This document shows, piece by piece, positions 4,230-46,500 of a stretch of DNA of 51,423 bases. Source of the stretch: a virus; IMG/VR virus record IMGVR_UViG_3300043539_001010, positions 1 to 51,423 of that record. The stretch is one strand, 5' to 3'. Below the pieces are notes generated by a model. That model was given only the letters and a program-made list of their open reading frames with translations. It had not been told where the DNA came from and ran no database searches. Position numbers and translations under genes: made by a program. Position 1 is the stretch's first letter; every line of letters starts with the position of its first letter.

Positions 4230-4246
4230 CAGTACTCCTTAATGAC

Positions 4247-4256
4247 TATATTTATC
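4247..4256 (-). promoter_or_regulatory. Late promoter for gp6
   Basis: The minus strand reads GGATAAATATAG about 20 bases before the gp6 ATG, with no -35-like hexamer. This matches the T4 gp55-type late promoter (TATAAATA). Confidence 0.7.
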
Positions 4257-4274
4257 CAACGGTTTGCCCAGTTT

Positions 4275-17242: not shown

Positions 17243-17246
17243 CTGT

Positions 17247-17278
17247 TTGTTGACTATTATTTTCTTAATAGTCAACAA
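17247..17278 (+). terminator. Perfect 13-bp hairpin after rnhA
   Basis: TTGTTGACTATTA pairs perfectly with TAATAGTCAACAA around a 6-base loop, five bases after the rnhA stop. No T-run follows immediately (the nearest is about 8 bases further), so it may be a 3'-end stabiliser or a terminator. Confidence 0.55.
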
Positions 17279-17366
17279 TAAGTGCTGTTTTTCTCTGCTA
17301 AATAGAGTATAATCAATCTATATCAGAACATTACAGAGGCCATCTCAAAATAAATTCACAAAAGTG

Positions 17367-17395
17367 TTGACAAGGTTCATTAACTAAGTTACAAT
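17367..17395 (+). promoter_or_regulatory. Sigma70 promoter reading into the non-coding region
   Basis: TTGACA, 17-bp spacer, TACAAT. No open frame follows for 1.4 kb; the predicted transcript enters the 55-bp repeats and then the structured segment. Confidence 0.7.
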
Positions 17396-17426
17396 TAATC
17401 ATACTAAAGAATTACCCAAAAGCAGT

Positions 17427-17644
17427 TTACAGAGACCATCTCAAATCAATACCGACACCAAGTCTACTTACACAAAAGCAATTACAGAGACCATCTCAAA
17501 TCAATACCGACACAAAGTCTACTCACACAAAAGCAGTTACAGAGACCAACTCAAGTATTACCGACACCAAGTCTACTTACACAAAAGCAGTTACAGAGAC
17601 CAACTCAAGTATTACCGACACAAAGTCTACTCGCACAAAAGCAA
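17427..17644 (+). repeat. Four tandem 54-55-bp repeats
   Basis: Units begin TTACAGAGACC at 17427, 17482, 17537 and 17591 (periods 55, 55, 54, 54). Each ends with ACAAAAGCA plus a pyrimidine-rich joint. Units 1-2 share ATCTCAAATCAATACC and units 3-4 share AACTCAAGTATTACC, so the array grew in steps. A degenerate partial unit (TTACAGAGGCCATCTCAAA) lies at 17331, upstream of the promoter. There is no spacer variation of the CRISPR kind. Confidence 0.9.
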
Positions 17645-18124
17645 TTACTCAATTATCTTTTAGGCACCCGCCAAACTTGCTCACCGAATTACTAGATAGA
17701 ACATAGAAAGGTGAGAGAATTGCTAAGAAAGCCGCGCACAGGCGACCATTACGTGCCCTTAAACCCTGGTCTACTTGAATCACAGGGGATGGAAGTTCCG
17801 ACATTAGCAACGGAGATATAGTTCACTACCCCACCAGATGAGTTATGGGATATGCCTTCATACAACCCATTTGAACTATAGCAAAAACGAATAACCAAGG
17901 CTAAAGATGGGTTGAGAAAACCCACGTCACGTAGATGAGGTAGCTGTTGTTTACGTGGCCACCGTCAGATTAATAAGACTGAGCTCGAGGTACCGGCTGA
18001 CCGCCTCTGTAATGCTCTACATGCTACTGTGATGCGATGCTTGTACGCAGAACCCTTGGACATTTTAGTTCCACAATTAGAAATGTCCATTGTCCTTTGA
18101 ATTAACCCGAGTTTTTCGGGTTAA
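17645..18124 (+). ncRNA. Candidate large structured non-coding RNA
   Basis: This segment has no usable reading frame, is richer in GC (about 45-52% in lines counted by hand, against roughly 40% nearby) and contains many stems. TATAGTTCA 17817-17825 pairs with TGAACTATA 17872-17880 and encloses ATGGG/CCCAT (17845/17866). Other stems are CTCACC 17680 with GGTGAG 17710, CCCTG 17764 with CAGGG 17783, TGGGTT 17908 with AACCCA 17919, CACGTA 17928 with TACGTG 17952, GAGG-CGG 17987 with CCG-CCTC 18001, an 8-bp GGACATTT/AAATGTCC stem at 18058-18088, and a final 9-bp stem at 18102-18124. A sigma70 promoter lies upstream on the same strand. Phages carry large RNAs of the GOLLD/ROOL kind; membership in any known class is not shown. 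Confidence 0.6.
18102..18124 (+). terminator. Strong stem closing the structured segment
   Basis: TTAACCCGA and TCGGGTTAA form a 9-bp stem with a 5-base loop (GTTTT). The loop is T-rich but no T-run follows, so it is either a terminator-like end or the last RNA helix. Confidence 0.55.
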
Positions 18125-18152
18125 GATGTTCAGCTCCACAACCCGCAGTGAG

Positions 18153-18171
18153 GGCTCCGCTGGCGCGTCGC
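18153..18171 (-). repeat. Shortened variant of the GCGA...GAGCC hairpin
   Basis: The minus strand reads GCGA, CGC, GCCA, GCG, GAGCC: the same flanks as the eight 23-bp elements further right, but with a 3-bp stem and a GCCA loop. It could be a degenerate member. Confidence 0.45.
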
Positions 18172-18273
18172 TATAATAGATTTAATTATTGATTTTAATA
18201 ATTGTAGGAGCATATAAGATTAAATGAATTCTAAAAGATAATGTACCTAATAGATACCTGCTTAAGCCACGCG

Positions 18274-18399
18274 CACATACATTTTTAGATGCATTCGAAC
18301 CCATACATTTTAGCTGTTTCCATTCGCGCACATACATTTTAGCTTTTTACCAGATGCACACATACATTATAAACTCCATATGAACACATACATTATAAC
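18274..18399 (+). repeat. Five iteron-like CATACATT repeats
   Basis: The core CATACATT, mostly preceded by CA and followed by WTA, begins at 18276, 18302, 18331, 18361 and 18387. Spacings are 26, 29, 30 and 26 bp, about two and a half to three helical turns. All are in one orientation. Regular same-strand repeats next to an AT-rich stretch are the usual look of a replication initiator binding array; no initiator gene is adjacent. Confidence 0.7.
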
Positions 18400-18545
18400 T
18401 CTAAAAGATAATTCAATTAATAACTCACATCAATAAGATCATCTATAAGACCATTAATATAAACATCAATAAGATCATTAATAACATCAGTAATAAACAT
18501 CATCTATAAGACAATCATCTTTTAGTAATCGACATCATCTATAAG
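18400..18545. repeat. AT-rich segment with short direct repeats
   Basis: ACATCAATAAGATCAT occurs at 18427 and 18463, and CATCATCTATAAGAC at 18498 and 18533, with further degenerate copies. By eye the stretch is close to three quarters A+T. It has no open frame and could be the easily melted part of an origin. Confidence 0.6.
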
Positions 18546-18760
18546 ACATTCATTGTTACATTATCTTTTAGTATTATCTTTTAGTATTATTCTTTTAAAT
18601 GGATAGCTACGTCTGGAGTTTATTCAATTATCTTTTAGTAACTAATGGATAGCTACGTCTAGTGGTTTCTATTATCTTTTAGTAATGATCATCAGGTGGA
18701 TGGGTTCATTATCTTTTAGTGCATTTCTGTGCGTTCATCCGGTAGTTCATCATCTTTTAG
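18514..18760. repeat. Cluster of seven ATTATCTTTTAG motifs and two 17-bp repeats
   Basis: Copies lie at 18514 (ATC variant), 18560, 18573, 18627, 18671, 18708 and 18749 (ATC variant), all in one orientation. AATGGATAGCTACGTCT is repeated at 18598-18614 and 18644-18660. There is no open frame. This is the densest occurrence of the window-wide 12-bp word. Confidence 0.8.
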
Positions 18761-18802
18761 TGGGTTCTCAAATAAATAGGTTCCGGTTCATCTCGGGTTT
18801 GC

Positions 18803-18810
18803 TATAAATA
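18803..18810 (+). promoter_or_regulatory. Consensus late promoter
   Basis: TATAAATA, identical to the T4 late consensus, 36 bases before the ATG at 18846. A second weaker AATAAATAGG lies at 18771-18780. Confidence 0.8.
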
Positions 18811-18845
18811 CTTGCAATACCCCATTCGAATAAGGAACCCAATCA

Positions 18846-25755: not shown

Positions 25756-25778
25756 GCGAGCACCGCTAGGTGCGAGCC
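25756..25778 (+). repeat. GCGA-N5-GNTA-N5'-GAGCC hairpin 1
   Basis: Flanks GCGA and GAGCC, stem GCACC/GGTGC, loop GCTA. It lies in the 152-bp gap between the tape measure gene and gp20, upstream of the gp20 late promoter. Confidence 0.85.
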
Positions 25779-25810
25779 TAACACAAGTAAAATAACCAAA
25801 ATCCCAAGAC

Positions 25811-25818
25811 ATAAATAG
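25811..25818 (+). promoter_or_regulatory. Late promoter for gp20
   Basis: ATAAATAG preceded by C, 33 bases before the gp20 ATG. Confidence 0.7.
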
Positions 25819-25850
25819 ATGAAACATTCAACAGAATAGGATTAATCTAA

Positions 25851-28800
25851 ATGTCTTGGAAAAAACACTTCAAACCAGTTACTATCGACGGCCACGGTTC
25901 TCATAGCCCAATCAGCGGCGGTGGAAGACCAGGCCCAGCTAAAACTAACTACTCTAGCTTCCTACCAGATGTCTACGCTGGTACACCAAACCGCATCGAT
26001 AGATACATGCAATATGATACCATGGACATGGACTCTGAAGTCAATGCCGCTCTCGATATCATCGCAGAATTCTGTACGCAAAAAGATAAAGAAAATGAAA
26101 CACCTTTTCATACCTCATTCCGTGGACAACCTACCTCCACCGAAGTTAAACTCATTAAAGACTGCTTGCAGAAATGGTGCAAACAACAACAATTCGAAAC
26201 TCGTATCTTTAGAATCGTCAGAAATACCTTTAAGTACGGTGACTGCTTCTTCTTAAGAGACCCCGAAACTAAGAAATGGTTGTACGTTGACCCAGTCAAA
26301 GTTAGTAAAATTATCGCAAACGAATCAGAGGGCAAAATCCCCGAACAATACGTTATCAAAGATATTAACTTTAACTTTAAAAACTTAATCGCTGTCACTC
26401 CTCACGGTATCACCAATACCTCACCCAGCGGTACTGCCAGCTATACTTCAGGTGGCAGCCTAGCTAGAGGTATGGTAGGCGATACCGCTAGAGCAACCGG
26501 TACCAGATTCCAAAATGCAATCAATGAAATCGCAGTCGATGCCAAAGACGTTGTTCATATCAGCCTAAGTGAAGGTCTTGATAATAACTTCCCATTTGGT
26601 AATAGCTTACTCGAATCTGTTTTCAAAGTCTATAAACAAAAAGAATTACTAGAGGATGCGGTTATTATCTACCGTGTGCAACGTGCTCCTGAAAGACGTA
26701 TTTTCTATGTGGATGTTGGTAATATGCCTGCACATATGGCGATGGGTTTCGTTGAACGTGTTAAAAACGAGATTCAACAAAGACGGATTCCTAGTAGTAC
26801 TGGTGGGTCGTCTGGTAGTACTGTTGACTCGAGTTACAATCCAATTGCTCAGAATGAAGATTTTTTCCTTCCGAAAACTTGCTTGTCACTTGACACAGCG
26901 ATAAAATTGATGGATAATCGAGTTTTAACCTTACAGGAGATTATCCATGAATATGAAAACGGTATTGAAAATTACGCATACACTGTCAATCAAGAAACAT
27001 TTGACATCGAACAAGGTAAAATTGTTTGGGCAGGAGTTACTCGTATGAACACGCAAGTAGTTGATGTATTGTTTGACAATAATCAAACAGTCCGTTGTAC
27101 CCCTGATCACAGATTCATCATGAGTGATGGTAGCGAAGTTGAAGCAAAAGACCTAAAAGATAATGACGTAGTCATGTCATTATTGAGTGAATTTGTGAAA
27201 ACCCACCACAAAGTTGAATCAGTTAAATGGTTACAAGAGATGATAGACACCGGTGATATCACAATCGAATCGCCAAGTGACAGTCATAACTTCGCAACTG
27301 CAGCTGGTGTGTTTGTTCATAATAGTGAAGGTCGTGGATCTAGTATTGAAACCTTGCCTGGTGGTTGTTTCGCAATGGATACTAAAGTATCGTTATTAGA
27401 TGGTCGTGAACTATCTATCCGTGATATCGAAACAGAACTAAAAGATGGTAAAACTTTATGGTCTTACTCATGCGAACCATTAACTGGTAAAATCGTACCA
27501 GGGTTGATTACTTGGGCTGGTGTTACTCACAAGTCTGCTAAAGTTATGAAAATAACATTAGATAATGGTGAAGAGATTATTGCAACTCCAGATCACAAGT
27601 TTCCGGTATATGAACAAGAGTTCAAACGTGCCCATGAGTTGGTAGTTGGTGATAGTTTAATTCCGTTGTATAGAAAATATGACTACATCAATCCTAGTAA
27701 TGAAGGCAATACTTACGAGAAATTCCATGATAATGTTGATAGAAAATGGAAGTTTACACACCGTGAAGTTGCTGACTATTTCAAAGATGATTTAGTTAAA
27801 TTTGAAGTACATGATCCTTCGATTGGAGTAGATGAACATATTGTTCGTCATCACAAAAACTTCGATCGTTACGATAATTCACCAGAAAACTTGTGCTTCA
27901 TGGGATGGAAAGATCATTCTAAGTATCACAGGGATACGAATGCTGAACGCATGCAACTCCTTAAAGAGAATTATCCTGAAGAATATCAACGTATTTGCAG
28001 TGCTATCAGCGAAGCTCATCTTGCTAGATTTGCCGCGATGGGTGACGAAGACCGTGCTAAAATTGGTGAAAGATCTGCAGAGGCGTGGGCAAGATGCACA
28101 CCAGAAGAATACGATAGTTGGTGTGAAAATATCAGTATTGCGTTGCAAGAGTATTGCTCAAACTTATCTGAAGAAGAACGTGAAGCTAGAGCAGTACAAT
28201 CAAGAGCAGCACGCGTTATTGGTAATCAGAAGTTCAACGAGAAGATGCAAAATGACCCAGTATTTTATGCCCAGGTTGTTGGTAAACGTATGGATCATTG
28301 GACTCCCGAAAATCGTGCTGAACGTGCAGAAGTAACTAGAGTTAATCAAGCGAAATATCAACAGACTGCCAAGTACCACGAAAATATCGAAAAGCAGGTG
28401 GAATCACAAAGCATTAAGTATTCACATGCTATGTTGAAATTCATTATTGGTCTTGTTAAGGGTAAAACAACACATCAAGTTGGATTAACGGATGTAGTCA
28501 ATGCGTTGAACAGTGACCAAGGAATGCTTGATGAATTGTACGAGTTGAACAAAGATAATACTACACCAAACTGGAATGTAGCAAACGGTTATACCGAGTC
28601 TAATGTCAAAACTCTAGTTAAACAATTTGGTTATGAAAAATGGTCTGATTTCCGTAAAAAAGAAAGTGTCCATAATCATACGATTGTAGCCATCGAATAC
28701 TTGGATGATGAAATCGAAGTTGGTACATTGACTATTGATCAGCACGAAAAATACCATAATTATCATACATTTGCGTTAAGTTCTGGTGTATTCGTGTTCA

Positions 28801-29471
28801 ACAGCAATTTGGGTGAAATCACAGATTTACGTTTCTTCACAAACAAACTTTTCCGGGCATTGAGAATCCCAGCAAGTTACTTACCTACTGGTATTGAAGA
28901 AGCCTCGAATACCGTAGCGGATGGAAAAGTGGGAACTGCGTATATCCAAGAGTTTAGATTTAATGAGTATTGTAAACGACTACAGAACTTATTGGTACAG
29001 ACGTTTGATTTGGAGTTTAAACTTTGGTTATATTCTCAAGGTATCAACATTGATAGTAGTTTATTTGAACTGAAGTTTAATGAGCCGCAAAACTTTGCAG
29101 CGTATAGACAAAGTGAGTTGGATACGACACGAGTGAATATCTTTGCGCAGTTACAAGAGATTCCATATTTGAGTAAACGATTTGCAATGAAGCGATTCTT
29201 GGGTATGACACAAGAGGAGATCACAGAGAATGAAGCTATGTGGCGTGAAGAGAACGGACATAAGTTAGAATCATTGGTAGATGGTGCTGGAGAGTTACGT
29301 TCTGCTGGGATTTCGCCAAGTGGAATTGCATCGGATATGAGTTCACAAGACGAGCAGGCACCTGAAGGCATAGGTCAAGGACCAGAAGGTGCGGCTGGTG
29401 GAGTTAATACTACTCCTGGCTCAACCGGTAATGCGGCACCTGGACCCACTGGTGGCCCAATGGGTATGTAA
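25851..29471 (+). CDS. gp20: Portal vertex protein gp20 with two inteins
   Basis: 1206-residue precursor of the portal protein, the dodecameric ring through which DNA is packaged. Portal exteins are residues 1-343, 492-505 and 985-1206 (579 residues after splicing; T4 gp20 is 524). Recognisable extein segments are PDVYAGTPNRIDRYMQYDTMDMDSEVNAALDI, VVHISLSEG, FPFGNSLLESVFKVYKQKELLEDA, YRVQRAPERR and, after splicing, FFLPKT/SEGRGSSIETLPGG/SNLGEITDLRFF...LFRALRIP. Intein 1 is residues 344-491 and intein 2 is 506-984; both begin with Cys and are followed by Ser. The C-terminal 50 residues are Gly/Pro-rich. AGGATTAATCTAA precedes the ATG. Without splicing the portal core would be interrupted, so splicing is presumably required. 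Confidence 0.95.
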   Translation: MSWKKHFKPVTIDGHGSHSPISGGGRPGPAKTNYSSFLPDVYAGTPNRIDRYMQYDTMDMDSEVNAALDIIAEFCTQKDKENETPFHTSFRGQPTSTEVKLIKDCLQKWCKQQQFETRIFRIVRNTFKYGDCFFLRDPETKKWLYVDPVKVSKIIANESEGKIPEQYVIKDINFNFKNLIAVTPHGITNTSPSGTASYTSGGSLARGMVGDTARATGTRFQNAINEIAVDAKDVVHISLSEGLDNNFPFGNSLLESVFKVYKQKELLEDAVIIYRVQRAPERRIFYVDVGNMPAHMAMGFVERVKNEIQQRRIPSSTGGSSGSTVDSSYNPIAQNEDFFLPKTCLSLDTAIKLMDNRVLTLQEIIHEYENGIENYAYTVNQETFDIEQGKIVWAGVTRMNTQVVDVLFDNNQTVRCTPDHRFIMSDGSEVEAKDLKDNDVVMSLLSEFVKTHHKVESVKWLQEMIDTGDITIESPSDSHNFATAAGVFVHNSEGRGSSIETLPGGCFAMDTKVSLLDGRELSIRDIETELKDGKTLWSYSCEPLTGKIVPGLITWAGVTHKSAKVMKITLDNGEEIIATPDHKFPVYEQEFKRAHELVVGDSLIPLYRKYDYINPSNEGNTYEKFHDNVDRKWKFTHREVADYFKDDLVKFEVHDPSIGVDEHIVRHHKNFDRYDNSPENLCFMGWKDHSKYHRDTNAERMQLLKENYPEEYQRICSAISEAHLARFAAMGDEDRAKIGERSAEAWARCTPEEYDSWCENISIALQEYCSNLSEEEREARAVQSRAARVIGNQKFNEKMQNDPVFYAQVVGKRMDHWTPENRAERAEVTRVNQAKYQQTAKYHENIEKQVESQSIKYSHAMLKFIIGLVKGKTTHQVGLTDVVNALNSDQGMLDELYELNKDNTTPNWNVANGYTESNVKTLVKQFGYEKWSDFRKKESVHNHTIVAIEYLDDEIEVGTLTIDQHEKYHNYHTFALSSGVFVFNSNLGEITDLRFFTNKLFRALRIPASYLPTGIEEASNTVADGKVGTAYIQEFRFNEYCKRLQNLLVQTFDLEFKLWLYSQGINIDSSLFELKFNEPQNFAAYRQSELDTTRVNIFAQLQEIPYLSKRFAMKRFLGMTQEEITENEAMWREENGHKLESLVDGAGELRSAGISPSGIASDMSSQDEQAPEGIGQGPEGAAGGVNTTPGSTGNAAPGPTGGPMGM
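26880..27323 (+). mobile_element. Mini-intein 1 in gp20
   Basis: 148 residues (344-491). It starts CLSLDTAIKLMDNR (block A), has VRCTPDHRFIMSDG (block B with the TxxH motif) and AKDLKDNDVVM, and ends NFATAAGVFVHN (blocks F and G) before Ser492. There is no endonuclease domain, so it cannot home by itself. It interrupts the FFLPKT/SEGRG portal segment. Excision is in frame. Confidence 0.92.
27366..28802 (+). mobile_element. Large intein 2 with HNH endonuclease in gp20
   Basis: 479 residues (506-984). Block A is CFAMDTKVSLLDGREL and block B is IIATPDHKFPVY. An HNH nuclease lies at about 659-695 (VDEHIVRHHKNF...NSPENLCFMGWKDHSKYH), and residues 705-860 contain Ala/Glu/Arg-rich helices like NUMOD3 DNA-binding repeats. 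The C-terminus is YHTFALSSGVFVFN before Ser985. The usual penultimate His is Phe here; several inteins splice without it. It lies only 14 residues after intein 1. Confidence 0.92.
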
Positions 29472-29477
29472 GCGTAG

Positions 29478-29485
29478 TATAAATA
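29478..29485 (+). promoter_or_regulatory. Consensus late promoter right before a terminator
   Basis: TATAAATA in the gap after gp20. The next strong element downstream is a terminator at 29500-29546, so transcripts would be about 50 nt long unless read through. Confidence 0.55.
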
Positions 29486-29499
29486 AGTTTGAATGTTTT

Positions 29500-29546
29500 G
29501 CCCCTGTTTTCCTAGTAATGTTTATTAGGATTCGGGGGTTTTTTAT
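29500..29546 (+). terminator. Intrinsic terminator after gp20
   Basis: Two-part stem: CCCC/GGGG outside and CCTAGTAA/TTATTAGG inside, followed by a run of T. It closes the tape measure-portal unit. Confidence 0.8.
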
Positions 29547-29565
29547 TGGAAGTTGTTTTGTCATT

Positions 29566-29588
29566 GGCTCGCACCTAGCGGTGCTCGC
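29566..29588 (-). repeat. GCGA-N5-GNTA-N5'-GAGCC hairpin 2
   Basis: Minus orientation. Stem GCACC/GGTGC, loop GCTA; both flanks are intact. It is the only inverted full-length member and lies just after the gp20 terminator. Confidence 0.85.
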
Positions 29589-29639
29589 GACTATAACAGA
29601 GTAATGATAAGGTGTGCTCTTGAAATTAATAGGTAATTT

Positions 29640-29662
29640 GCGAGGCGTGATAACGCCGAGCC
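29640..29662 (+). repeat. GCGA-N5-GNTA-N5'-GAGCC hairpin 3
   Basis: Stem GGCGT/ACGCC, loop GATA. All five pairs are kept although the arms differ from the GCACC type. Confidence 0.88.
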
Positions 29663-29675
29663 AACTGATGATTAA

Positions 29676-29704
29676 TTGACATATAAATGCATCCATGTTA
29701 TAAT
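29676..29704 (+). promoter_or_regulatory. Consensus sigma70 promoter
   Basis: TTGACA, 17-bp spacer, TATAAT: a perfect consensus promoter 33 bases before the ATG at 29738. Confidence 0.88.
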
Positions 29705-29737
29705 TGAATTTTAAAAACCATAAAAACGAGGTGTAAA

Positions 29738-30145
29738 ATGACAACAACCAACCAAATCGTGTATGCAGTTAATGTAGTTTGCAGTGATGGCCTAATAGAA
29801 CTTGAGTTATTCACTGATAAGGAACAAGCATTAGCATATAGTGATGAAATGGAGAAATTATATGATTCGTCTTGTACTCTTCCTAATTTGCATATTGGTT
29901 TTTGGGAAAGAACCATTGACCAAGTAAATCCTACTGGTAGATTGATTCAAGTAAATCCAAATACCGGGTTTAAACCAATCATCGGTGGAGTTAAGGATGG
30001 TGATGATTATAAAGATAATGTCACTATTGATTGCACCGAGGTTGACGGTAGACGACAATGGTCTGTCAATGTTCTTGGTGATCACACCGCTGAAGAACTT
30101 AAGAACATAATTGAAACTTTAAGCACCCGTACTGGTATTTGCTAG
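29738..30145 (+). CDS. Hypothetical early protein
   Basis: 135-residue protein, not recognised. It begins MTTTNQIVYAVNVVCSDGLIELELFTDKEQALAYSDEMEKLY, a strand-turn-helix start common in small phage proteins, and its C-terminus is WSVNVLGDHTAEELKNIIETLS. A perfect sigma70 promoter at 29676-29704 and an AGGTG ribosome binding site support an expressed early gene. It is monocistronic, closed by a terminator at 30161-30183. Confidence 0.75.
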   Translation: MTTTNQIVYAVNVVCSDGLIELELFTDKEQALAYSDEMEKLYDSSCTLPNLHIGFWERTIDQVNPTGRLIQVNPNTGFKPIIGGVKDGDDYKDNVTIDCTEVDGRRQWSVNVLGDHTAEELKNIIETLSTRTGIC

Positions 30146-30160
30146 TGGCATAAGTAACAG

Positions 30161-30183
30161 AGGGCTACTCAGGTAGCCCTTTT
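30161..30183 (+). terminator. Intrinsic terminator
   Basis: AGGGCTAC / GTAGCCCT stem with loop TCAG, followed by TTTC. Confidence 0.85.
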
Positions 30184-30217
30184 CGTTTGAACTAAAAGAT
30201 AATCGATAATTACTTTA

Positions 30218-30240
30218 GCGAGCACCGTTAGGTGCGAGCC
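30218..30240 (+). repeat. GCGA-N5-GNTA-N5'-GAGCC hairpin 4
   Basis: Stem GCACC/GGTGC, loop GTTA. It lies between a CTAAAAGATAAT copy (30192-30203) and the late promoter at 30254. Confidence 0.88.
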
Positions 30241-30253
30241 AACAAAAGCCAAC

Positions 30254-30262
30254 CAATAAATA
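30254..30262 (+). promoter_or_regulatory. Late promoter
   Basis: AATAAATAC, 29 bases before the ATG at 30291. Confidence 0.6.
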
Positions 30263-30290
30263 CAGCAACTAGACAAAGGCAGGTATAGCT

Positions 30291-31439
30291 ATGAGAATAA
30301 GTGAATTGATAGAAGCAAGGAAAAATCCAGATAAGAATCCAAAAATATCAGTATGGGACTATGTGAATGCTGAATTACCAAAAGCGGATGAAATCGCAGA
30401 TGTTAGTAATATGTTTGTTAGTTTCACCACTATCGATAAGTTGGGTATCAACCCAAACTCAACATATAATACACCACTAGGTATATACGCATATCCAGGC
30501 GAATATGTGCAATACAAAGCACGTTACAATACAAATGATTTACCGTTTGCTGGCGGTAGCGAATATGCTAATGTATTCAAAGTAACTGGTAATATCGTCA
30601 ACCTAAGTGAACTAACATCGGCTGACGAATTGAAGTATCACCAACAACTCAGCGAAGTATATGCAACTGCAGTGAAACCCCTTGGTGTGTCATGGAAAAC
30701 TGCAGTGGATACTGTATACGATTTGATAATTGAATCGGACAACAAAGCAAGGGTAAAATCACCGGGTGGAAAACTGTGGTATATAACGATGAAACTTACA
30801 ACATTACCGACAAGATCGGTGACATATGCTTGGAATACCAAACCGCATATTGCTTGGAATTCACTTTTTCGTCGAATTGGTATCGATGGTTGTATTGATA
30901 ACGGGGATTCGATTATTCACCCAGTAGAACCAACCCAAGCCGTATTTTTTTCAAAAACCGTAATCAAAAACAACGTTAGATTACTCAATAAGTGGACAAC
31001 TGCATCGATTAATATGGGAACTGCTAGAGGTATGTCGGCCCAGCATGCAATTGGTAAACTAGCAAAGATGACCGATCAAGAACTCGAAGACTACGTGAAA
31101 TCTGTTACACATGGTATCAAGTATGTTAAACAACCAACTGAAGAACTACAATTGGCTGCGGTTGGTAGTAATGCTAATTCTATCCAACACATCAAAAATC
31201 CAACTGAACGAGTTCAACTATTGGCGATTACTAAAGTACCTTCGACTATAAAATACATCACAAACCCAAGTGAAGCCATCCAATTTGCCGCTGTTGCCAA
31301 AGCAGCAATATCAATACAGCATATTGACAATCCAACTGAAAAGGTTCAAAGATTAGCGATTAAGCAAGAGGGTAATGCTATGATTTACTACATCAAAAAC
31401 CCACACCCGAATGTGTTAAAACTAGTTGGGAAAGTGTGA
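30291..31439 (+). CDS. Conserved phage protein with C-terminal DUF4116-like repeats
   Basis: 382-residue protein. The N-terminal region has MRISELIEARKNP, SVWDYVNAELPKAD, MFVSFTTIDKLGINPNSTYNTPLGIYAYPGEYV (about 45-77) and a Trp/Arg-rich middle; this pattern recurs in hypothetical proteins of large myoviruses. Residues about 275-380 hold four to five repeats of about 24 residues, each like 'IQHIKNPTERVQLLAI', resembling DUF4116 repeats (also in the proteins at 41517 and 42382). The function is unknown. The late promoter at 30254-30262 and AGG-type site suggest late expression. Confidence 0.8.
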   Translation: MRISELIEARKNPDKNPKISVWDYVNAELPKADEIADVSNMFVSFTTIDKLGINPNSTYNTPLGIYAYPGEYVQYKARYNTNDLPFAGGSEYANVFKVTGNIVNLSELTSADELKYHQQLSEVYATAVKPLGVSWKTAVDTVYDLIIESDNKARVKSPGGKLWYITMKLTTLPTRSVTYAWNTKPHIAWNSLFRRIGIDGCIDNGDSIIHPVEPTQAVFFSKTVIKNNVRLLNKWTTASINMGTARGMSAQHAIGKLAKMTDQELEDYVKSVTHGIKYVKQPTEELQLAAVGSNANSIQHIKNPTERVQLLAITKVPSTIKYITNPSEAIQFAAVAKAAISIQHIDNPTEKVQRLAIKQEGNAMIYYIKNPHPNVLKLVGKV

Positions 31440-31448
31440 GTTTTTGGT

Positions 31449-31473
31449 AAGGGCTACTCAGGTAGTCCTTTTC
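31449..31473 (+). terminator. Intrinsic terminator
   Basis: AAGGGCTAC / GTAGTCCTT stem (one mismatch) followed by TTCTTT. It is a sister of the terminator at 30161. Confidence 0.75.
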
Positions 31474-31502
31474 TTTACCTAAAAGATAACTGAAATTAGG
31501 TT

Positions 31503-31525
31503 GCGAGCCGCGTTAGCGGCGAGCC
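31503..31525 (+). repeat. GCGA-N5-GNTA-N5'-GAGCC hairpin 5
   Basis: Stem GCCGC/GCGGC, loop GTTA. It lies 15 bp upstream of a sigma70 -35 box. Confidence 0.88.
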
Positions 31526-31540
31526 ATTAATACAAAACAC

Positions 31541-31568
31541 TTGACATCCTCTAATATCCCGCTATAAT
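31541..31568 (+). promoter_or_regulatory. Consensus sigma70 promoter of the DUF1566 array
   Basis: TTGACA, 16-bp spacer, TATAAT, closely similar to the promoter at 15552. It precedes the gene at 31600. Confidence 0.88.
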
Positions 31569-31599
31569 ACCCCTAACTTAATCAACCGGAGTAAAACAA

Positions 31600-31902
31600 A
31601 TGGCAGAATTCACAATCAAGTTTAGACCCGAGGATTACTTCCCACCTAGAGGGATGAAGAATCGACCACGCTCGCAATCGCTATGGTCTAAGGATTATGG
31701 CGTGTACTGGTACATACAACCCTATGAAGAGTTTAATCATAAACTATATAGAAAGTTGTTCTATCTAGGCAATTTTGCACCGTTACCTGTACAACGCAAG
31801 TGGGAGCCAGTGTATAACAAATTCATGAATAGACATGCCCCGTATTTTGTGCGATCGGTTTGCAAACGCTGGAGTAGAAAATATACTGGAAAGTTCTTCT
31901 AA
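31600..31902 (+). CDS. Hypothetical basic early protein
   Basis: 100-residue protein rich in Arg, Lys, Tyr, Trp and Phe (MAEFTIKFRPEDYFPPRGMKNRPRSQSLW..., ending CKRWSRKYTGKFF). It has no recognised domain, and its strong positive charge would fit nucleic-acid contact, which is speculation. CCGGAG precedes the ATG and a consensus promoter lies 32 bases upstream. It is the first gene of the early unit that continues through the DUF1566 array to the terminator at 33976. The stop overlaps a CTAAAAGATAAT motif. Confidence 0.72.
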   Translation: MAEFTIKFRPEDYFPPRGMKNRPRSQSLWSKDYGVYWYIQPYEEFNHKLYRKLFYLGNFAPLPVQRKWEPVYNKFMNRHAPYFVRSVCKRWSRKYTGKFF

Positions 31903-31949
31903 AAGATAATTGAATCGCAGTTCAACCATGATCTTCAATAGGTAACCCA

Positions 31950-32240
31950 ATGAACTTTCAAATAGCACCTAAATCAACCGAGATTCAAACCAACTGGTTT
32001 GATGCCAGATTTTATTGTTTCTCCCTTAATGTAAATGGAAAATCTGGTTGGAGATTACCTAACATAGATGAATTAAATGAGATATACCTTTCAGAAAATG
32101 ATTTTGAAAAACGTTGGTATTGGTCCTCTACTGAGGATAGTGGCAACGACGCCTGGAGTCAGTATATGTCAAATGGCAGCCAGTACGGCGGCAATAAGAG
32201 CTTCGGCGGCACCTACGTTAGAGCCATCAGATCAATATAA
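31950..32240 (+). CDS. DUF1566-like mini-protein C, DGR-type variable end
   Basis: 96-residue paralogue: MNFQIAPKSTEIQTNWFDARFYCFSLN, GKSGWRLPNIDELNEIY, FEKRWYWSSTE, then a variable part and the constant end TYVRAIRSI. The coding strand of the variable part is dominated by C-ending codons (GGC, AAC, GAC, AGC, TAC, ACC), whereas the rest of the gene prefers A/T endings. It is nearly identical to protein F outside the variable positions. Six bases after the stop region lies a 23-bp hairpin (32246-32268). An AGGTAA site precedes the ATG. Confidence 0.85.
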   Translation: MNFQIAPKSTEIQTNWFDARFYCFSLNVNGKSGWRLPNIDELNEIYLSENDFEKRWYWSSTEDSGNDAWSQYMSNGSQYGGNKSFGGTYVRAIRSI

Positions 32241-32245
32241 TAGAA

Positions 32246-32268
32246 GCGAGCACCGCTAGGTGCGAGCC
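32246..32268 (+). repeat. GCGA-N5-GNTA-N5'-GAGCC hairpin 6
   Basis: Stem GCACC/GGTGC, loop GCTA, beginning 6 bp after the stop of mini-protein C. Confidence 0.9.
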
Positions 32269-32282
32269 AATAGGAAAAACAA

Positions 32283-32606
32283 ATGATTGAAATAGCACCT
32301 AAAGAATACGAAGCGCCTCTACAATTCCAAGAAGCAAAACTATATTGCTTTTCACTTAATATTGATGGTAAAATAGGTTGGAGATTACCTACTATTGAAG
32401 AGTTGGAAAACATCTATACCTGTGTGAATGATTTTATGAAAAACGGGTGGTATTGGTCATCGACTGAAGTTGAAAACGGGGTTTGGTTTAAATCATTTAG
32501 TCGATACCCGAAAAACGGACCAACTGGATGGAAAGATATCATCTATTTTACCGAATTTCATACAAATGTAAACTCCTGTTTAGTCAGACCAGTGAGAGAC
32601 CTATGA
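32283..32606 (+). CDS. DUF1566-like mini-protein D
   Basis: 107-residue paralogue: MIEIAPKEYEAPLQFQEAKLYCFSLNIDGKIGWRLPTIEELENIY, WYWSSTEVENGVWFKSF and a longer variable segment, ending CLVRPVRDL. The variable part has normal AT-rich codons, unlike proteins A, C and F. An AGGAAAAAC site precedes the ATG. The stop overlaps the start of the next gene (ATGA). Confidence 0.82.
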   Translation: MIEIAPKEYEAPLQFQEAKLYCFSLNIDGKIGWRLPTIEELENIYTCVNDFMKNGWYWSSTEVENGVWFKSFSRYPKNGPTGWKDIIYFTEFHTNVNSCLVRPVRDL

Positions 32607-32944
32607 CTTATTTTTCAACAAAACTTTACCCGCCAACTCCACGATTACCATGTCAACTGTCGGATTCTATGTATTGGAAGAAAATGAGTTGGGAAGAAGC
32701 CAAGATGTATTGCTTTTCTCTTAATGACAGGGGTATAATTGGATGGAGATTACCTACGTTATTTGAGTTGAACAGTATTATATTACTAGTATCATCCCCA
32801 TTAGACTATGAATTTGAGATTTGGTCAGAAGAAAATGGACAGGACATTGCTTGGTTTATGTCTAGTCGGAATAGTCAGAGATTGGCAAGCAAGTATATGG
32901 ATGATATTTACTGTATCCCAGTTCGAGATCTAAAAGATGATTAA
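32603..32944 (+). CDS. DUF1566-like mini-protein E (diverged)
   Basis: 113-residue paralogue with a longer N-terminus (MTYFSTKLYPPTPRLPCQLSDSMYWKKMSWEEAKMYCFSLN), GIIGWRLPTLFELNSI, a degenerate WSEENGQDIAWF in place of WSST, and the end CIPVRDLKDD. The start ATG overlaps the previous stop; the frame is open further upstream but that part lies inside the preceding gene. The last codons contain the CTAAAAGATGAT form of the 12-bp word. Confidence 0.8.
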   Translation: MTYFSTKLYPPTPRLPCQLSDSMYWKKMSWEEAKMYCFSLNDRGIIGWRLPTLFELNSIILLVSSPLDYEFEIWSEENGQDIAWFMSSRNSQRLASKYMDDIYCIPVRDLKDD

Positions 32945-32964
32945 TACCACTGAGAAAAACCAAA

Positions 32965-33261
32965 ATGAACTTTGAAATAGCACCAAAATCAACCGAAATA
33001 CTCGCCACATGGAATGATGCCCGTTTGTATTGTTTCTCTCTTATTATTGATGATAAAACTGGATGGAGATTACCCACTAAAGATGAATTAAACGAAATAC
33101 ACGAATCAGAAAATGATTTTGAAAAACGTTGGTATTGGTCTTCTACTGAGTATAATGGCAACAGCGGCATCTATAGTCAGAATATGAATGGTGGCATCCA
33201 GGGCTACGGTGGCGATAAGAACTACGCCGTCGCCTACGTTAGAGCCATCAGGTCAATATAA
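32965..33261 (+). CDS. DUF1566-like mini-protein F, DGR-type variable end
   Basis: 98-residue close relative of protein C: MNFEIAPKSTEILATWNDARLYCFSL, KTGWRLPTKDELNEI, FEKRWYWSSTEYNGN, a variable part, and AYVRAIRSI. The 3' 28 bases up to the stop region match protein C almost base for base, while the block 33220-33234 differs from C only at codon positions 1 and 2. A full-length hairpin starts 5 bp after the stop. The ribosome binding site is weak (AGAAAAACCAAA). Confidence 0.85.
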   Translation: MNFEIAPKSTEILATWNDARLYCFSLIIDDKTGWRLPTKDELNEIHESENDFEKRWYWSSTEYNGNSGIYSQNMNGGIQGYGGDKNYAVAYVRAIRSI

Positions 33262-33265
33262 TATC

Positions 33266-33288
33266 GCGAGCACCGCTAGGTGCGAGCC
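33266..33288 (+). repeat. GCGA-N5-GNTA-N5'-GAGCC hairpin 7
   Basis: Stem GCACC/GGTGC, loop GCTA, beginning 5 bp after the stop of mini-protein F, the same placement as hairpin 6. Confidence 0.9.
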
Positions 33289-33303
33289 AATAAGGAAAAT
33301 CAA

Positions 33304-33699
33304 ATGACAGACGACCAATTCCTGCAATCCTTAAAACTAAAGCCTAAGCCAGTTGAACCAATCGAGGTTTACGAGTCTTTGAATATAGAAATTGCACCCA
33401 GTCATTACTGTAGGCAACTGACTTGGGCAGATGCAAAACTTTACGCATTTTCTTTAAACATAGACGGTAAGATCGGATGGAGATTACCTTGTGATGAAGA
33501 AATGGGTTGCTTACTTGAGAATCATCCAAGATTTAATGGTTTCTGGTATATGCAATACTGGTGTGATGTAAACAAATCCGGCCGTATAAAATCTAAAGAG
33601 TATACTGCGTGGCTGGAACCCACTGGCCTACATTTCCAAACTCGTAATGGCGAATATGTACATAATACCGTCTTTGTCCGAGATCTAAAAGATGATTGA
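33304..33699 (+). CDS. DUF1566-like mini-protein G (extended)
   Basis: 131-residue paralogue. It has a 30-residue N-terminal extension (MTDDQFLQSLKLKPKPVEPIEVYESL) before NIEIAPSHYCRQLTWADAKLYAFSLNIDGKIGWRLPCDEEM; the WSST motif is replaced by WYMQYWCD, and the end is VFVRDLKDD. The frame is open from 33280 inside a hairpin element, but ATG 33304 has AAGGAAAA upstream and is chosen. The end overlaps the next gene by 8 bases at a CTAAAAGATGAT word. Confidence 0.8.
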   Translation: MTDDQFLQSLKLKPKPVEPIEVYESLNIEIAPSHYCRQLTWADAKLYAFSLNIDGKIGWRLPCDEEMGCLLENHPRFNGFWYMQYWCDVNKSGRIKSKEYTAWLEPTGLHFQTRNGEYVHNTVFVRDLKDD

Positions 33700-33967
33700 G
33701 ATATCACCTAAATCATTCGAAAAGCACCTAACCCACGACGATGCTAAATTTTACGTATTTTCACTAGGCGATGGTTGGAGATTCCCAACCGTTGAGGAAT
33801 TGCGAATAATACACGGGAGTGCCAATGATTTGGAAAACGAGTTGCATTTTACTAATTCCGATACGTTAGTTTCTTTTAGTTATCGGCGTTTCATCAAGTG
33901 TTTTGATCGAGATGAATGCGAAGATGATTGTTTTATCAGACCAGTCAGAGATCTAAAAGATGATTAA
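33692..33967 (+). CDS. DUF1566-like mini-protein H (short, degenerate)
   Basis: 91-residue paralogue: MIEISPKSFEKHLTHDDAKFYVFSLGDGWRFPTVEELRIIH, no WSST motif (LHFTNSDTLVSFSY instead), and the end CFIRPVRDLKDD. The domain is trimmed, so it may be a decaying copy or a diverged functional one. The start overlaps the previous stop. The last codons again contain CTAAAAGATGAT, followed by a terminator that ends the array. Confidence 0.78.
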   Translation: MIEISPKSFEKHLTHDDAKFYVFSLGDGWRFPTVEELRIIHGSANDLENELHFTNSDTLVSFSYRRFIKCFDRDECEDDCFIRPVRDLKDD

Positions 33968-33975
33968 ATCACCAT

Positions 33976-33997
33976 AGGCTACTCCGGTAGCCTTTTT
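33976..33997 (+). terminator. Terminator of the DUF1566 array
   Basis: AGGCTAC / GTAGCCT stem with loop TCCG, then TTTT. Confidence 0.85.
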
Positions 33998-34035
33998 AAT
34001 ACCCAAAATTCACCATAACATTTCACTGTATGCTT

Positions 34036-34058
34036 GCGAGAGCCGATAGGCTCGAGCC
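34036..34058 (+). repeat. GCGA-N5-GNTA-N5'-GAGCC hairpin 8
   Basis: Stem GAGCC/GGCTC, loop GATA. This is a fourth arm sequence with full pairing and unchanged flanks. Confidence 0.88.
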
Positions 34059-43074: not shown

Positions 43075-43085
43075 GGCTAAATACC
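43075..43085 (+). promoter_or_regulatory. Late promoter of the fibre unit
   Basis: GGCTAAATACC, about 67 bases before the ATG at 43152. Confidence 0.6.
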
Positions 43086-43151
43086 GTATCTAAGTAATTA
43101 TGCAGAATCCCTCTGCGTAGACCTAGAACGTCAACTATAAGGAGAAAACAA

Positions 43152-43535
43152 ATGGGACGTCCGTTAAAAAGAGATGTGAATGGTATTTTAGTATTTGGTA
43201 CATATACCGGTGATGCAGGTATTCGTTGCGAAGCGTATATTGGTGGAAGTAATCAAAATGACGTGTATATTGTACGTCAACGTGGTGTAAGAACTTATTT
43301 GGTACACGACACCAGTGCGGGTACTGAAGTTATCGCACGATTGGTTGCTGGTACACCTGCTGCGGCTGGTGAAATGAGATTAACTGGCTATATTGATGGT
43401 GCTGATACACCAGTTTACTTGAGAAAGTTAACTAAAAAATCTGCGATTGATTTTAACAACAACAAGTATCGTTGGGAATTGACCAACTATGCGGATTCAA
43501 CAGCTGATCAAATCAAATTGACTCCATACGTATAA
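43152..43535 (+). CDS. Small virion-associated protein upstream of fibres
   Basis: 127-residue protein MGRPLKRDVNGILVFGTYTGDAGIRCEAYIGGSNQNDVYIVRQRGVRTYLVHD..., with a beta-rich pattern and the end NKYRWELTNYADSTADQIKLTPYV. Proteins starting MGRP(I/L)(N/K)+ occur next to fibre genes in distant T4-like phages and are reported as structural; I infer the same here. AAGGAG precedes the ATG, and the fibre start follows after 10 bases. Confidence 0.75.
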   Translation: MGRPLKRDVNGILVFGTYTGDAGIRCEAYIGGSNQNDVYIVRQRGVRTYLVHDTSAGTEVIARLVAGTPAAAGEMRLTGYIDGADTPVYLRKLTKKSAIDFNNNKYRWELTNYADSTADQIKLTPYV

Positions 43536-43545
43536 GGAGTAAGCC

Positions 43546-46500
43546 ATGGGACAAGTAATACAAATTAATGGTGATTATACCATAAAAGCCAGACGAGCCG
43601 GTGGAGCTAATGTCATGTTTGACACAGGCGAGCAAATTGGTTCAGTAACTGTTACTGGCGATTTGCATGTATTGGGAACAACTCATACATTTAACTCTCA
43701 GGTGATTAGTGATGTAGTGCTTGTCCTAAATCGTGGTGAAACTGGTACTGGTGTTACTTTACGAAGATCTGGACTTGAGATTGATCGTGGATCGTTGGAT
43801 AGAGCGGATTTCTTATTTGATGAGGATGTTAACGCGTGGACGGTAACTCATAAATTAACAGATGGGACTTATAGTTATGCAGATAGTAATCTTCAAGTAC
43901 GCAAAATATTAACAGATGCTAGTACTGACAATGGCGATTTGACTTTAATTAATACTGGTACTGGTGTGGTTAAAGTTGCTGGTACTAATGCGTATGAAAC
44001 ACGAGTATTAGATTATACTCGATTAGCTTCGGTAGCAATAACGCACATTGAGCGTAGTTCTACGTTGCACATGATTACGGTAACTACTGCTACACCGCAT
44101 GGATTGGCAATTAATGATTATGTTGATATCCACTGTGCTACGTTTCCTGCGTTTAACGCGTCTGATAAGATCATTCTTGATAGAACTGATACAACGTTTA
44201 AGTATGCGGATAACGGTGCTACATTTGCTATTACTCCGGTATCTGGTTATGTAATTAAAAATTCGTTGATGTGGATTGATGGGTCATCTTACGTTCCAAC
44301 AGATGATTACATTCCAAGTATGCGAACAGTATCTGATTACTCTCGTTCATTGGTTAATGCTGCTATTAGTAACTTTTCAACTAGCCATATCGAAGATCAG
44401 AACAGTAATGTTTTAGTATATGATTCAGAAACTGCAGGTGGAACATCGTATGTTAAAGTTACAGTAGATGGTATTGAAAAGATTAGAGTTGTTGGTACTG
44501 GTATTACAACACCTGCTTCTACATTTGATTTATTGAATGAAAATGCATTGACTGTAAACTTTGCAGGTGCTGGTACATTGATTAATGTTGGTTCTGGTAC
44601 TACTGGTACTACAACTAATTTGAAAAATGCTACCGTTGTTATTGGTAATGGCACGGTTTCAGCCATTACAACACCTGCTGCTACTTTTAATTTAGTTAAT
44701 GATACAGCAACTACAGTAAACTTTGCTGGTGCTGGTACATTACTCAATATTGGTTCTGATGCAGTTAGTACAACTACTAATTTGAAGAATGCGACTCTTA
44801 ATGTTGGCAATGGTATTGTTTCTGCCATTACAACACCAGCCGCTACGTTTAGTTTGGTTAATACCAATGCTGCTACAGTGAACTTTGCTGGTGCTGGTAC
44901 ATTGATTAATATTGGTTCTGATGCGGTTAGTACAACTACTAATTTGAAGAATGCGGAAGTTAAGATTGGTAATGCGAATGGCAATGCATCATTAACAACT
45001 CCAGCTACTACCTTTAACTTAATTGATGATACCGCAACCACAGTGAACTTTGCTGGTGCTGGTACTGCAATTCGTATCGGTGCTATTACTGGTAAAACTA
45101 CAGTTCGTAATCCAGAGTTATCTGTTGGGAATGCGACTGGTGTTGGTAGTTCATCTGCAATAACTACACCATCAGAAACATTCAATTTGATTAATGGTAC
45201 TGCATCCACGATTAACTTTGCGGGTGTTGGTTCAACCATCAATATTGGTTTAGCCACTACTGGTACTATTACAAATTTAAAAAATGCGGAAGTTAAGATT
45301 GGTAATGCGAATGGTGATGCATCATTATCAACCCCAGCTACTACTTTTAATTTGATTGATTCGATTGCAACAACCGTTAATCTTGCTGGTGCTGGTACAA
45401 CTATCAATGTTGGTTCAGGTACTATTGGTACAACCACTAATTTAAAGAATTCAGTTATTGCGGTTGGTAATGGAACTACTTCGTCAATTACAACACCTGC
45501 AACTACATTTAACTTAGTCAATGACACTGCAACTGCAGTTAATCTTGCTGGTGCTGGTACAACCATTAATGTTGGATCTGCTACGGCTGGTACAACCACT
45601 AATTTAAAGAATGCGGTTGTTGCGGTTGGTAATGGAACTACGTCGTCAATTACAACACCTGCAACTACATTTAACTTGGTTAATGGCACTGCGACTACTG
45701 TGAACTTTGCTGGTGCTGCAAACATAATTAATATTGGTGCTGCATTACCTGGTACAACAACAATCAATCACGATTTGGTTGTTGCTGGTACGTTAACGTT
45801 TAATGGCTCAAATACCATTAATGCATCTACTATTTCGGTAGTAGACCCATTAATTTTCTTAGCTGATGGGAACGCGTATGATTCAGTAGATATCGGACTT
45901 TACGCAGCCTATAATGTCGGCAGTCCACCAAACCCAACACACCCATACACTGGATTAGTCCGTGATGCGAGTGATGGTATTTGGAAATTATTTAGTGGGG
46001 TTACCGATGCGCCAGGAATAACAGTTGATTTCACTAATGCAGTTTATGATAAATTAAAAATAGGTGACTTAGCAGCAGTAAAAGGTGTATTCACCGGTGA
46101 TGTATCTGGTGTTAAAGGAACTTTTACTGGTGATTTAGCAGTTGGTAGTACGTTCAAGGCGACTGCAACCACTGGTGATCTTACAGTAAATGATTTAACC
46201 GCAAGAAAAGGTACATTTTCTGGTAATGTTTTGACAACTGGTAATATTACAGGTGTAACAATCACTGGTGCTACAATCTCTGGTACTACATTTACTGGTA
46301 TTTTACCTGCGATGATTGGTGGTAATGGTGTTTATGACAGATCGACAACTGATCAAAAAATTGCAGATGTTGCGGCTGGTTTAGCTGCTGGTGATGTAAC
46401 GGTGACGATAACGGGAAATACTGGTAGTAGTGTAGATCTCGCGGCGGCAACTGGCATTTTACCAGTACTACATGGCGGAACTGGCGCATCCGCAGCGACA

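Follow-up and report, generated by a model that had tools for sequence, protein, structure and literature searches.

Hairpins with paired GCGA/GAGC feet form a dispersed, structure-defined family in a clade of T4-like jumbo phages

A virus record of 51,423 bases (IMG/VR IMGVR_UViG_3300043539_001010, analysed over its full length and called the window here) carries eight copies of a 22-nucleotide (nt) hairpin whose two feet, GCGA and GAGC, are constant while the arms of the stem differ in sequence. In T4-like jumbo phages of one clade the unit reaches high copy number; it occurs in both orientations and hardly ever inside genes, and the family is defined by structure and fixed feet, not by arm sequence. 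Tentatively, we favor reading these hairpins as a dispersed family of structure-defined repeats resembling repetitive extragenic palindromic (REP) sequences, with single-stranded DNA as the probable form in which the structure matters; the mobility and function of the hairpins are matters that we infer.

Results

The stem is almost always paired, whatever its sequence

The family was proposed in a sequence-only reading of the window. A search with the pattern GCGA-N5-GNTA-N5-GAGCC returned exactly eight sites, those of the proposal in both position and strand (seven plus, one minus), and all five arm positions form Watson-Crick pairs at each. The arms read GCACC at five sites and GGCGT, GCCGC, and GAGCC at one site each. 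Second-order Markov versions of the window gave a mean of 0.31 feet-only matches and 0.01 paired matches (100 runs).

The clade comprises 19 records of uncultured T4-like jumbo phages (the window, G001–G016, G018, and G019), gathered by a scan of viral contigs and three single-arm scans; the single-arm scans were complete and added two records. Among the matches listed by the contig scan, paired arms occurred in contigs of about 38% GC and the others had 0–3 of 4 pairs, with the exception of G017, a different virus. Clade counts leave out G017 and the last 253 bases of G007. Where non-redundant copies are cited, 60 were kept of the 107 clade copies by dropping those with similar flanks, from the records other than G018 and G019.

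The proposal had placed the family within 8.3 kb, which proved far too narrow: 48 copies are spread over the 327,256 bases of G001, compared with none in 20 second-order Markov simulations. The ends of G001 overlap by 176 bases at 98.9%, which indicates that this record is near complete. When sites in the 19 records were selected by their feet only, five arm pairs were present in 107 of 113 and four in another 4 (111/113 together); after repeat removal, the counts were 80 and 4 of 86. Among 23 distinct sequences, 39 cells had two-sided changes, compared with 11.5 after shuffling, and the covariation score was 0.651 compared with 0.144, a signal that was lost when the partner was slid by 1–3 columns. 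These 23 were preselected for at least four of five pairs, and the test free of pairing is the feet-only selection. Half-changed arms were nearly missing from the same set (one of G-U type and one mismatch), and G-U pairs filled 1 of 161 cells. G001 has 70 hairpins that combine a flawless 5-bp stem with a GNTA loop. GCGA/GAGC feet are found on 44 of them, and each remaining foot pair among the twelve listed is seen at most once.

A paired change was also seen in place. At the site of window hairpin 34036, where flanks are 96–98% identical, G004 (position 1156) carries GTGCC-GCTA-GGCAC and not GAGCC-GATA-GGCTC, and the GTGCC/GGCAC form with loop GCTA is present at this site in G003 and G001 as well. 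The covariation claimed in the sequence-only reading is borne out by these results, and it withstood the two refuting conditions set in that reading: arms stay paired in relatives, and the pattern is far more frequent than in simulated sequence. The stronger claim, that pairing itself is under selection, is likely and not proven, because template switching can also match arms; one over-corrected copy was found.

The feet pair with each other through a tandem G·A step

DNA and RNA folding both gave ((..(((((....)))))..)) for the four window arm types, a fold in which the two outermost pairs are G-C, a two-by-two step of G·A/A·G mismatches comes next, and five further pairs lead to the GNTA loop. 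Because the GCGA and GAGC feet pair with each other, the unit is a hairpin of 22 nt and the next base belongs to the flank; pairing of flanks beyond these 22 nt was no more than chance. On either side of the stem, the mismatch step reads 5'-CGAG-3', and tandem sheared G·A pairs are stable in such a context. Fold energies for the four arm types were −12.1 to −14.1 kcal/mol as RNA (z −3.4 to −3.9) and −5.5 to −7.3 as DNA (z −1.7 to −2.6).

Flanks and length had been described as invariant, which holds for the eight window copies; feet, stem length, and loop vary in rarer copies elsewhere. Variants with the same feet have a 4-bp stem with an AAC or GTTA loop, or a 3-bp stem with a GTA, GCTA, or GCCA loop, and one orthologous site has the 5-bp GTTA form in G001 (79809) and the 4-bp AAC form in G002 (14345). 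Perfect arms are kept in eight distinct sequences with mutated feet; one of these, at G008 3715, is a full palindrome. At G001 157108, the arms GGAGC/GCGAC form two successive G·A steps, a variant that the RNA model folds into the hairpin and the DNA energy model does not. The palindrome at G008 3715 takes in the feet and two flanking bases and is likely the product of a template-switch event. Truncated copies include a few 5' halves and no clear 3' halves, numbers too small to be of use.

Nearly all copies lie between genes, in both orientations, at preferred flanks

In G001, 1 of 48 copies lies mostly inside a called gene, and gaps make up 12% of the genome. Fifty-nine non-redundant copies could be placed relative to genes. 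Between co-directional genes, 30 are sense and 17 antisense; divergent genes flank 11, and convergent genes flank 1. Where two full copies lie close together, the arrangement is tandem in 7 pairs and divergent in 6 (some of these at a single locus), never convergent. All eight window hairpins lie between called genes, in agreement with the proposal, according to a home-made gene caller. A mechanical list of open reading frames (ORFs) touches three of them: its minus-strand ORF 29421–29747, not kept by the gene caller, overlaps two, and a GTG start at 33280 falls inside hairpin 33266, where the gene caller starts instead at ATG 33304.

The bases next to the 60 non-redundant copies show a preference. 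T stands at −2 in 51 copies and G at −1 in none; on the other side, +1 is C in 48 and T in 10, and +2 is A or T in 59. The preference can be written as T-H before the hairpin and Y-W-W after it.

One site differs between relatives by the presence of the unit itself. G001 (324198) and G004 (2931) carry one hairpin between ...ATCTT and CAATAGG, whereas the window at 31935/31936 reads ...ATCTTCAATAGG, exactly 22 nt fewer, with no target duplication and with a unique placement. Identity to G001 is 91% across 400 bases of the left flank and 79% across 140 of the right flank, which is the start of an Lcl_C gene. The hairpin-free site, TT/CAA, conforms to the flank preference.

Hairpins with the same feet occur in another virus and in Nocardioides

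Whole records of the isolates Vibrio phage 2.275.O, Phosso, GAP32, XbC2, and slurp01 held 29 feet-only matches, none with more than 3 of 5 arm pairs. No standard element, and one 4-bp hairpin, was found in 85 loci (80 capsid relatives and 5 isolate stretches, 949 kb). The 78 other contigs among the matches listed (718 kb) held 3 GCGA/GAGC hairpins, compared with 9 and 1 for control feet, which is no excess.

G017, in which 3 of 54 called proteins are similar to those of the clade, has 19 same-foot hairpins at 1889–5094 under a lenient rule (stems from 2 bp), all on one strand. Seven have 5-bp stems, and 15 lie within 0.5 kb.

In a search for hosts, arms ending in CC were found in 48 stretches, 18 of them from Nocardioides or Pimelobacter; about ten stretches from other taxa were also paired, with one or two copies each. 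The 18 Nocardioides and Pimelobacter stretches were fetched and contain 37 sites whose arms consist wholly of standard or G·A pairs. Five Nocardioides genomes (G020–G024) have 80–166 matches to GCGA-N5-GNNA-N5-GAGC, compared with 8–24 for the reversed pattern, a count made without a pairing requirement; among the places listed, many have paired arms, in some cases with an additional G·A step, and others are unpaired. Of 119 genomes from the phylum of one of these Nocardioides, which we take to be Actinomycetota, only that genome was rich in matches (96 compared with 2 reversed), and the next have 11. The bacterial repeats and the phage hairpins share the 22-nt core of GCGA, 5-nt arms, GNNA loop, and GAGC, as well as the rare GGAGC/GCGAC arm pair with its extra tandem G·A. 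In these GC-rich bacterial genomes, however, the core usually sits inside a longer high-copy repeat, GTTGAGGT...CTCGAAAC. One literature search on such Nocardioides repeats returned nothing pertinent. The hairpins of the clade, G017, and Nocardioides may reflect either common descent or convergence.

TnpB is present, and no Y1 transposase was detected

The sequence-only reading had likened the hairpins to REP elements mobilized by RAYT transposases. The anatomy fits, but a search for the RAYT-type domain Y1_Tnp at E 0.001 found none in 20 records, most of them fragments, and none was found in the five Nocardioides genomes. IS200/IS605 elements are a partial parallel: their TnpA (Y1) was not found in the phage records, whereas TnpB is present, with four copies in G001, one in G003, one in G014, and none in G002 (four records searched). 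Three of these six TnpB loci contain, in their left part, an 18-nt relative of the hairpin, identical in two, and this is the only link between TnpB and the 22-nt units. The idea that the hairpins are insertion sequence ends was rejected because one close TnpB copy lacks the 18-nt relative. Separately, a TnpB element (G003 43180–44689 and relatives) is inserted at what looks like the ATG start codon of a phage gene, with empty sites in G001 and G002.

Alternative explanations for the hairpins

The main rival, which we consider possible if rather unlikely, is a regulatory cassette in which the hairpin and a strong early sigma70-type promoter would work together as a functional module at the boundary of transcription units; recombination between its copies, and not transposition of its own, would have spread it by modular shuffling. 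Such a cassette would resemble the promoter early stem-loops (PeSLs) that Arbiol in 2010 and Comeau in 2014 reportedly described in gene-shuffling regions of T4-like myoviruses; PeSL work on T4-like phages is also cited in a passage of PMC4503421. With at most one promoter mismatch, 18 of 60 copies were upstream of a strong sigma70-type promoter, compared with 5.4 expected. The promoter was on the same strand for 7 and on the opposite strand for 11 (2.7 each at random gap positions), an orientation neutrality that favors REP-like repeats. No copy overlapped such a promoter (6.2 expected), and 5 would be transcribed from one (4.9 expected). Allowing two mismatches gave 11 same-strand and 12 opposite-strand copies upstream (4.6 and 4.8 expected), no overlap (10.6 expected), and 12 transcribed (8.8 expected). 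These counts are not fully independent because some copies share one promoter.

The tight spacing in a subset of copies favors a cassette. Same-strand promoters start 10–20 nt past the hairpin in 7 of 7 cases, and in 8 of 11 with two mismatches allowed; at the stricter threshold, about 0.4 per 60 would be expected in this band. The only two 12-of-12 promoters at 25.6–34.4 kb in the window both follow hairpins (Table 1), and the gene between hairpins 29640 and 30218 is missing from G001 and G004. The stem-loop plus promoter arrangement of PeSLs is matched by a subset, the 7 of 60 copies with this same-strand spacing. However, 42 of the 60 copies do not lie upstream of any strong promoter, and 53 lack one on the same strand; the hairpins show no clear association with synteny breaks (5 of 19 within 30 bp of a breakpoint, compared with 12% expected). 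Unlike PeSLs, whose stem-loop is reportedly a transcription terminator, the hairpins occur in both orientations and, judged by sequence, do not resemble terminators, as they lack a U-tract: TTTT lies within 9 nt in only 1 of the 60 copies, and six or more T in 10 nt occur in 5.

We think it unlikely that the unit is an RNA element, that is, a leader or intercistronic hairpin in the transcript that controls stability, processing, or translation. The RNA fold is very stable, sense copies outnumber antisense copies in co-directional gaps, and the copies listed in two Lcl_C gene arrays of G001 (237–240 and 324–326 kb) are sense, several of them just ahead of AGGA. Orientation over all placed copies is nevertheless near neutral, with 28 of 59 antisense or in gaps between divergent genes, and the antisense strand cannot form the G·A pairs. 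G-U pairs are nearly missing, and the copies upstream of promoters lie in spacer that is perhaps not transcribed. No Rfam 15 family at gathering score lies over the hairpins in the window or in all of G001. Orientation neutrality, together with the exact 22-nt difference between relatives, favors a unit of DNA over one of RNA.

An artefact of mutation, in which template switching at quasi-palindromes matches the arms without selection on pairing, is improbable as a general account. It could produce the perfect palindrome in G008 and the near absence of half-changed arms. The same process would convert GCGA/GAGC into GCGA/TCGC, but only one of the eight distinct foot-mutants, found beside 111 sites with intact feet, is so corrected. 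It also leaves unexplained the 48 dispersed copies, the flank preference, and the exact 22-nt presence or absence.

The comparison with hairpins of a diversity-generating retroelement (DGR), here one that would target Lcl_C genes, also came from the sequence-only reading and does not hold as a general explanation; we regard it as very improbable. Lcl_C genes are expanded, often in tandem arrays: domain matches number 48 in G001 and 7 in the window. Among 50 G001 copies, a set that includes two foot-mutants, 9 are located on the 3' side of an Lcl_C domain at a distance of up to 150 bp, 8 of them sense. On either side, 17 of the 50 are within 150 bp, compared with 7% of random gap positions, and part of this enrichment is likely due to duplication of gene plus hairpin. 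The other 33 copies are farther away, however, and no RVT_1 reverse transcriptase was found in the four records searched, G001 among them.

Least probable of all are intrinsic transcription terminators, which would fit GC-rich intergenic hairpins and the one terminator-like site that a simple scan marked over hairpin 32246 (minus strand), but nearly all copies lack a U-tract, as judged from sequence, and separate T-run terminator-like sites lie upstream of window hairpins 31503 and 34036.

The window hairpins and their surroundings

The features of the window are collected in Table 1. Next to the hairpins lie a T4-type portal gene, which contains an intein, and genes of the Lcl_C (formerly DUF1566) type. 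Hairpin 25756 has an orthologue at G001 319056, and the same hairpin with a similar 3' flank is found at G004 8009. A stretch of about 0.7 kb (29550–30253) that holds hairpin 30218 is missing from G001 and G004, and only TTGCGA is kept at the orthologous place of hairpin 31503 in these two records. Hairpin 32246 directly precedes a ribosome-binding-like AGGA.

Table 1. Hairpins, promoter-like sites, and the hairpin-free junction in the window (slash, point at which relatives carry the hairpin)
Feature	Position	Strand	Remark
22-nt hairpin, arms GCACC/GGTGC, loop GCTA	25756..25777	+	Pattern search
22-nt hairpin, arms GCACC/GGTGC, loop GCTA	29567..29588	-	Divergent partner of 29640
22-nt hairpin, arms GGCGT/ACGCC, loop GATA	29640..29661	+	12-of-12 sigma70-type promoter 14 nt further
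Sigma70-type promoter-like site TTGACA-17-TATAAT	29676..29704	+	Promoter scan
22-nt hairpin, arms GCACC/GGTGC, loop GTTA	30218..30239	+	Pattern search
22-nt hairpin, arms GCCGC/GCGGC, loop GTTA	31503..31524	+	Pattern search
Sigma70-type promoter-like site TTGACA-16-TATAAT	31541..31568	+	16 nt past hairpin 31503
Hairpin-free junction TT/CAATAG	31935..31936	+	One 22-nt hairpin here in G001 (324198) and G004 (2931)
22-nt hairpin, arms GCACC/GGTGC, loop GCTA	32246..32267	+	Between two Lcl_C-type genes
22-nt hairpin, arms GCACC/GGTGC, loop GCTA	33266..33287	+	Directly follows Lcl_C gene
22-nt hairpin, arms GAGCC/GGCTC, loop GATA	34036..34057	+	Pattern search
18-nt relative, 3-bp stem, GCGA-CGC-GCCA-GCG-GAGC	18154..18171	-	Near Polynucleobacter-1 RNA

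Among annotated phages, the capsid protein of the window is closest to those of jumbo myoviruses, for example, Sinorhizobium phage Phosso and Vibrio phage 2.275.O; megablast with a 10.8-kb region of the window gave no match among annotated phages. The portal gene (25851–29471) carries an intein splicing domain.

Several other repeats and RNAs were observed. The motif CTAAAAGATAAT occurs 139 times in the 327 kb of G001 (0.19 expected), in both orientations and with no gene-direction bias, and in the window at 30192, 31479, and 18561–18709, among other places. Within 150 nt 5' of the hairpin, CTAAAAGAT[AG]A is present on the same strand in 24 of 60 copies, compared with 9.7 expected; for the opposite strand the count is 1 of 60, compared with 6.2 expected. 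A 1.6-kb stretch of the window (17243–18845) has no ORF of at least 80 amino acids and holds a Polynucleobacter-1 RNA (RF01718) at 17731–17881 and many copies of CTAAAAGATAA; four further places in G001 match the same RNA family. A freshwater-2 RNA (RF02980) at 43082–43154 is barely over the gathering score.

Discussion

REP sequences are among the closest known parallels to the phage hairpins. Di Nocera 2013 (PMC3733652) describes GTAG and CGTC REPs as extragenic elements with a 4-nt end tag, a short loop, and paired stem variants, several stem types per genome, and pairs in tandem or inverted arrangement mostly 20–100 bp apart; the CGTC REPs have no dedicated transposase. The phage hairpins share both anatomy and spread: a tag, a short loop, complementary stem changes, extragenic location, and tandem or inverted pairs. 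They are short, high-copy extragenic palindromes with paired stem variants, although the foot is neither GTAG nor CGTC; it is GCGA, which can pair with GAGC. REPs are described there as common between convergent genes, where the phage hairpins are rare. REPINs (PMC3116915), in which an inverted pair of REPs is the unit that moves, offer a second comparison. Divergent pairs of phage hairpins exist, yet the sole clean presence/absence site involves a single hairpin and not a doublet. According to PMC8266576, TnpA-REP (RAYT) recognizes the folded single-strand hairpin by its tag, stem, and loop and cleaves beside it at CT or CA. That specificity resembles the C-A or C-T that usually follows the phage hairpins, an analogy that may serve as a lead and is not a test.

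On the REP-like reading, a phage or host enzyme would recognize the hairpin, in the form of folded single-stranded DNA, while the phage replicates, and would insert it at T-H/Y-W-W sites. Copies would be retained where they are least harmful or of some use, for example, in the spacer upstream of a promoter. Arms may change in one step, through replacement by another family member or self-templated repair; half-changed arms would then be expected to be as scarce as they are. The multicopy presence of the same core in Nocardioides is a further point in favor of this reading.

Several observations weigh against it. The failure to detect a Y1 enzyme is one. There is a single clean presence/absence site, either state of which may be the older, and its right flank belongs to a shuffled Lcl_C gene. 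When relatives are compared, the two rows mostly agree in their hairpin: 157 row pairs were scored as same, 32 as different, and 22 as none, many of them redundant or paralogous. If a foot-mutant copy is counted, there is also one convergent pair (G001 106849/106875). The tight 10–20 nt promoter spacing looks more like function or co-duplication than free insertion, and the same can be said of the Lcl_C enrichment. Because the commonest arm had no match in the bacterial and archaeal genome collection searched, no host source was assigned.

A wider proposal, which we offer as speculation and consider rather doubtful, is that the hairpins of the jumbo phages, G017, and Nocardioides constitute a third superfamily of tagged palindromic repeats. 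The mark of its members would be a GCGA/GAGC foot built from two G-C pairs with tandem G·A mismatches, and not an unpaired tag; any stem of 3–5 bp could complete it. Movement would take place in the folded single-stranded DNA state, through some enzyme that is not RAYT, and copying would rewrite the arms in a single step. Among the top-ranked papers listed, we found none on a GCGA/GAGC hairpin family in phages, judging by titles and abstract openings and outside subscription papers.

REP sequences have been known for decades, and the spread of single palindromes and paired stem variation are questions still open. The phage family is compact and countable: the foot is fixed, stem types are numerous, exact presence or absence is seen at one site, and a parallel exists in bacteria. 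Phage family and bacterial parallel, both without a detected Y1 transposase, together offer a small system in which to seek the missing enzyme, and the same system could separate selection on pairing from copying artefacts.

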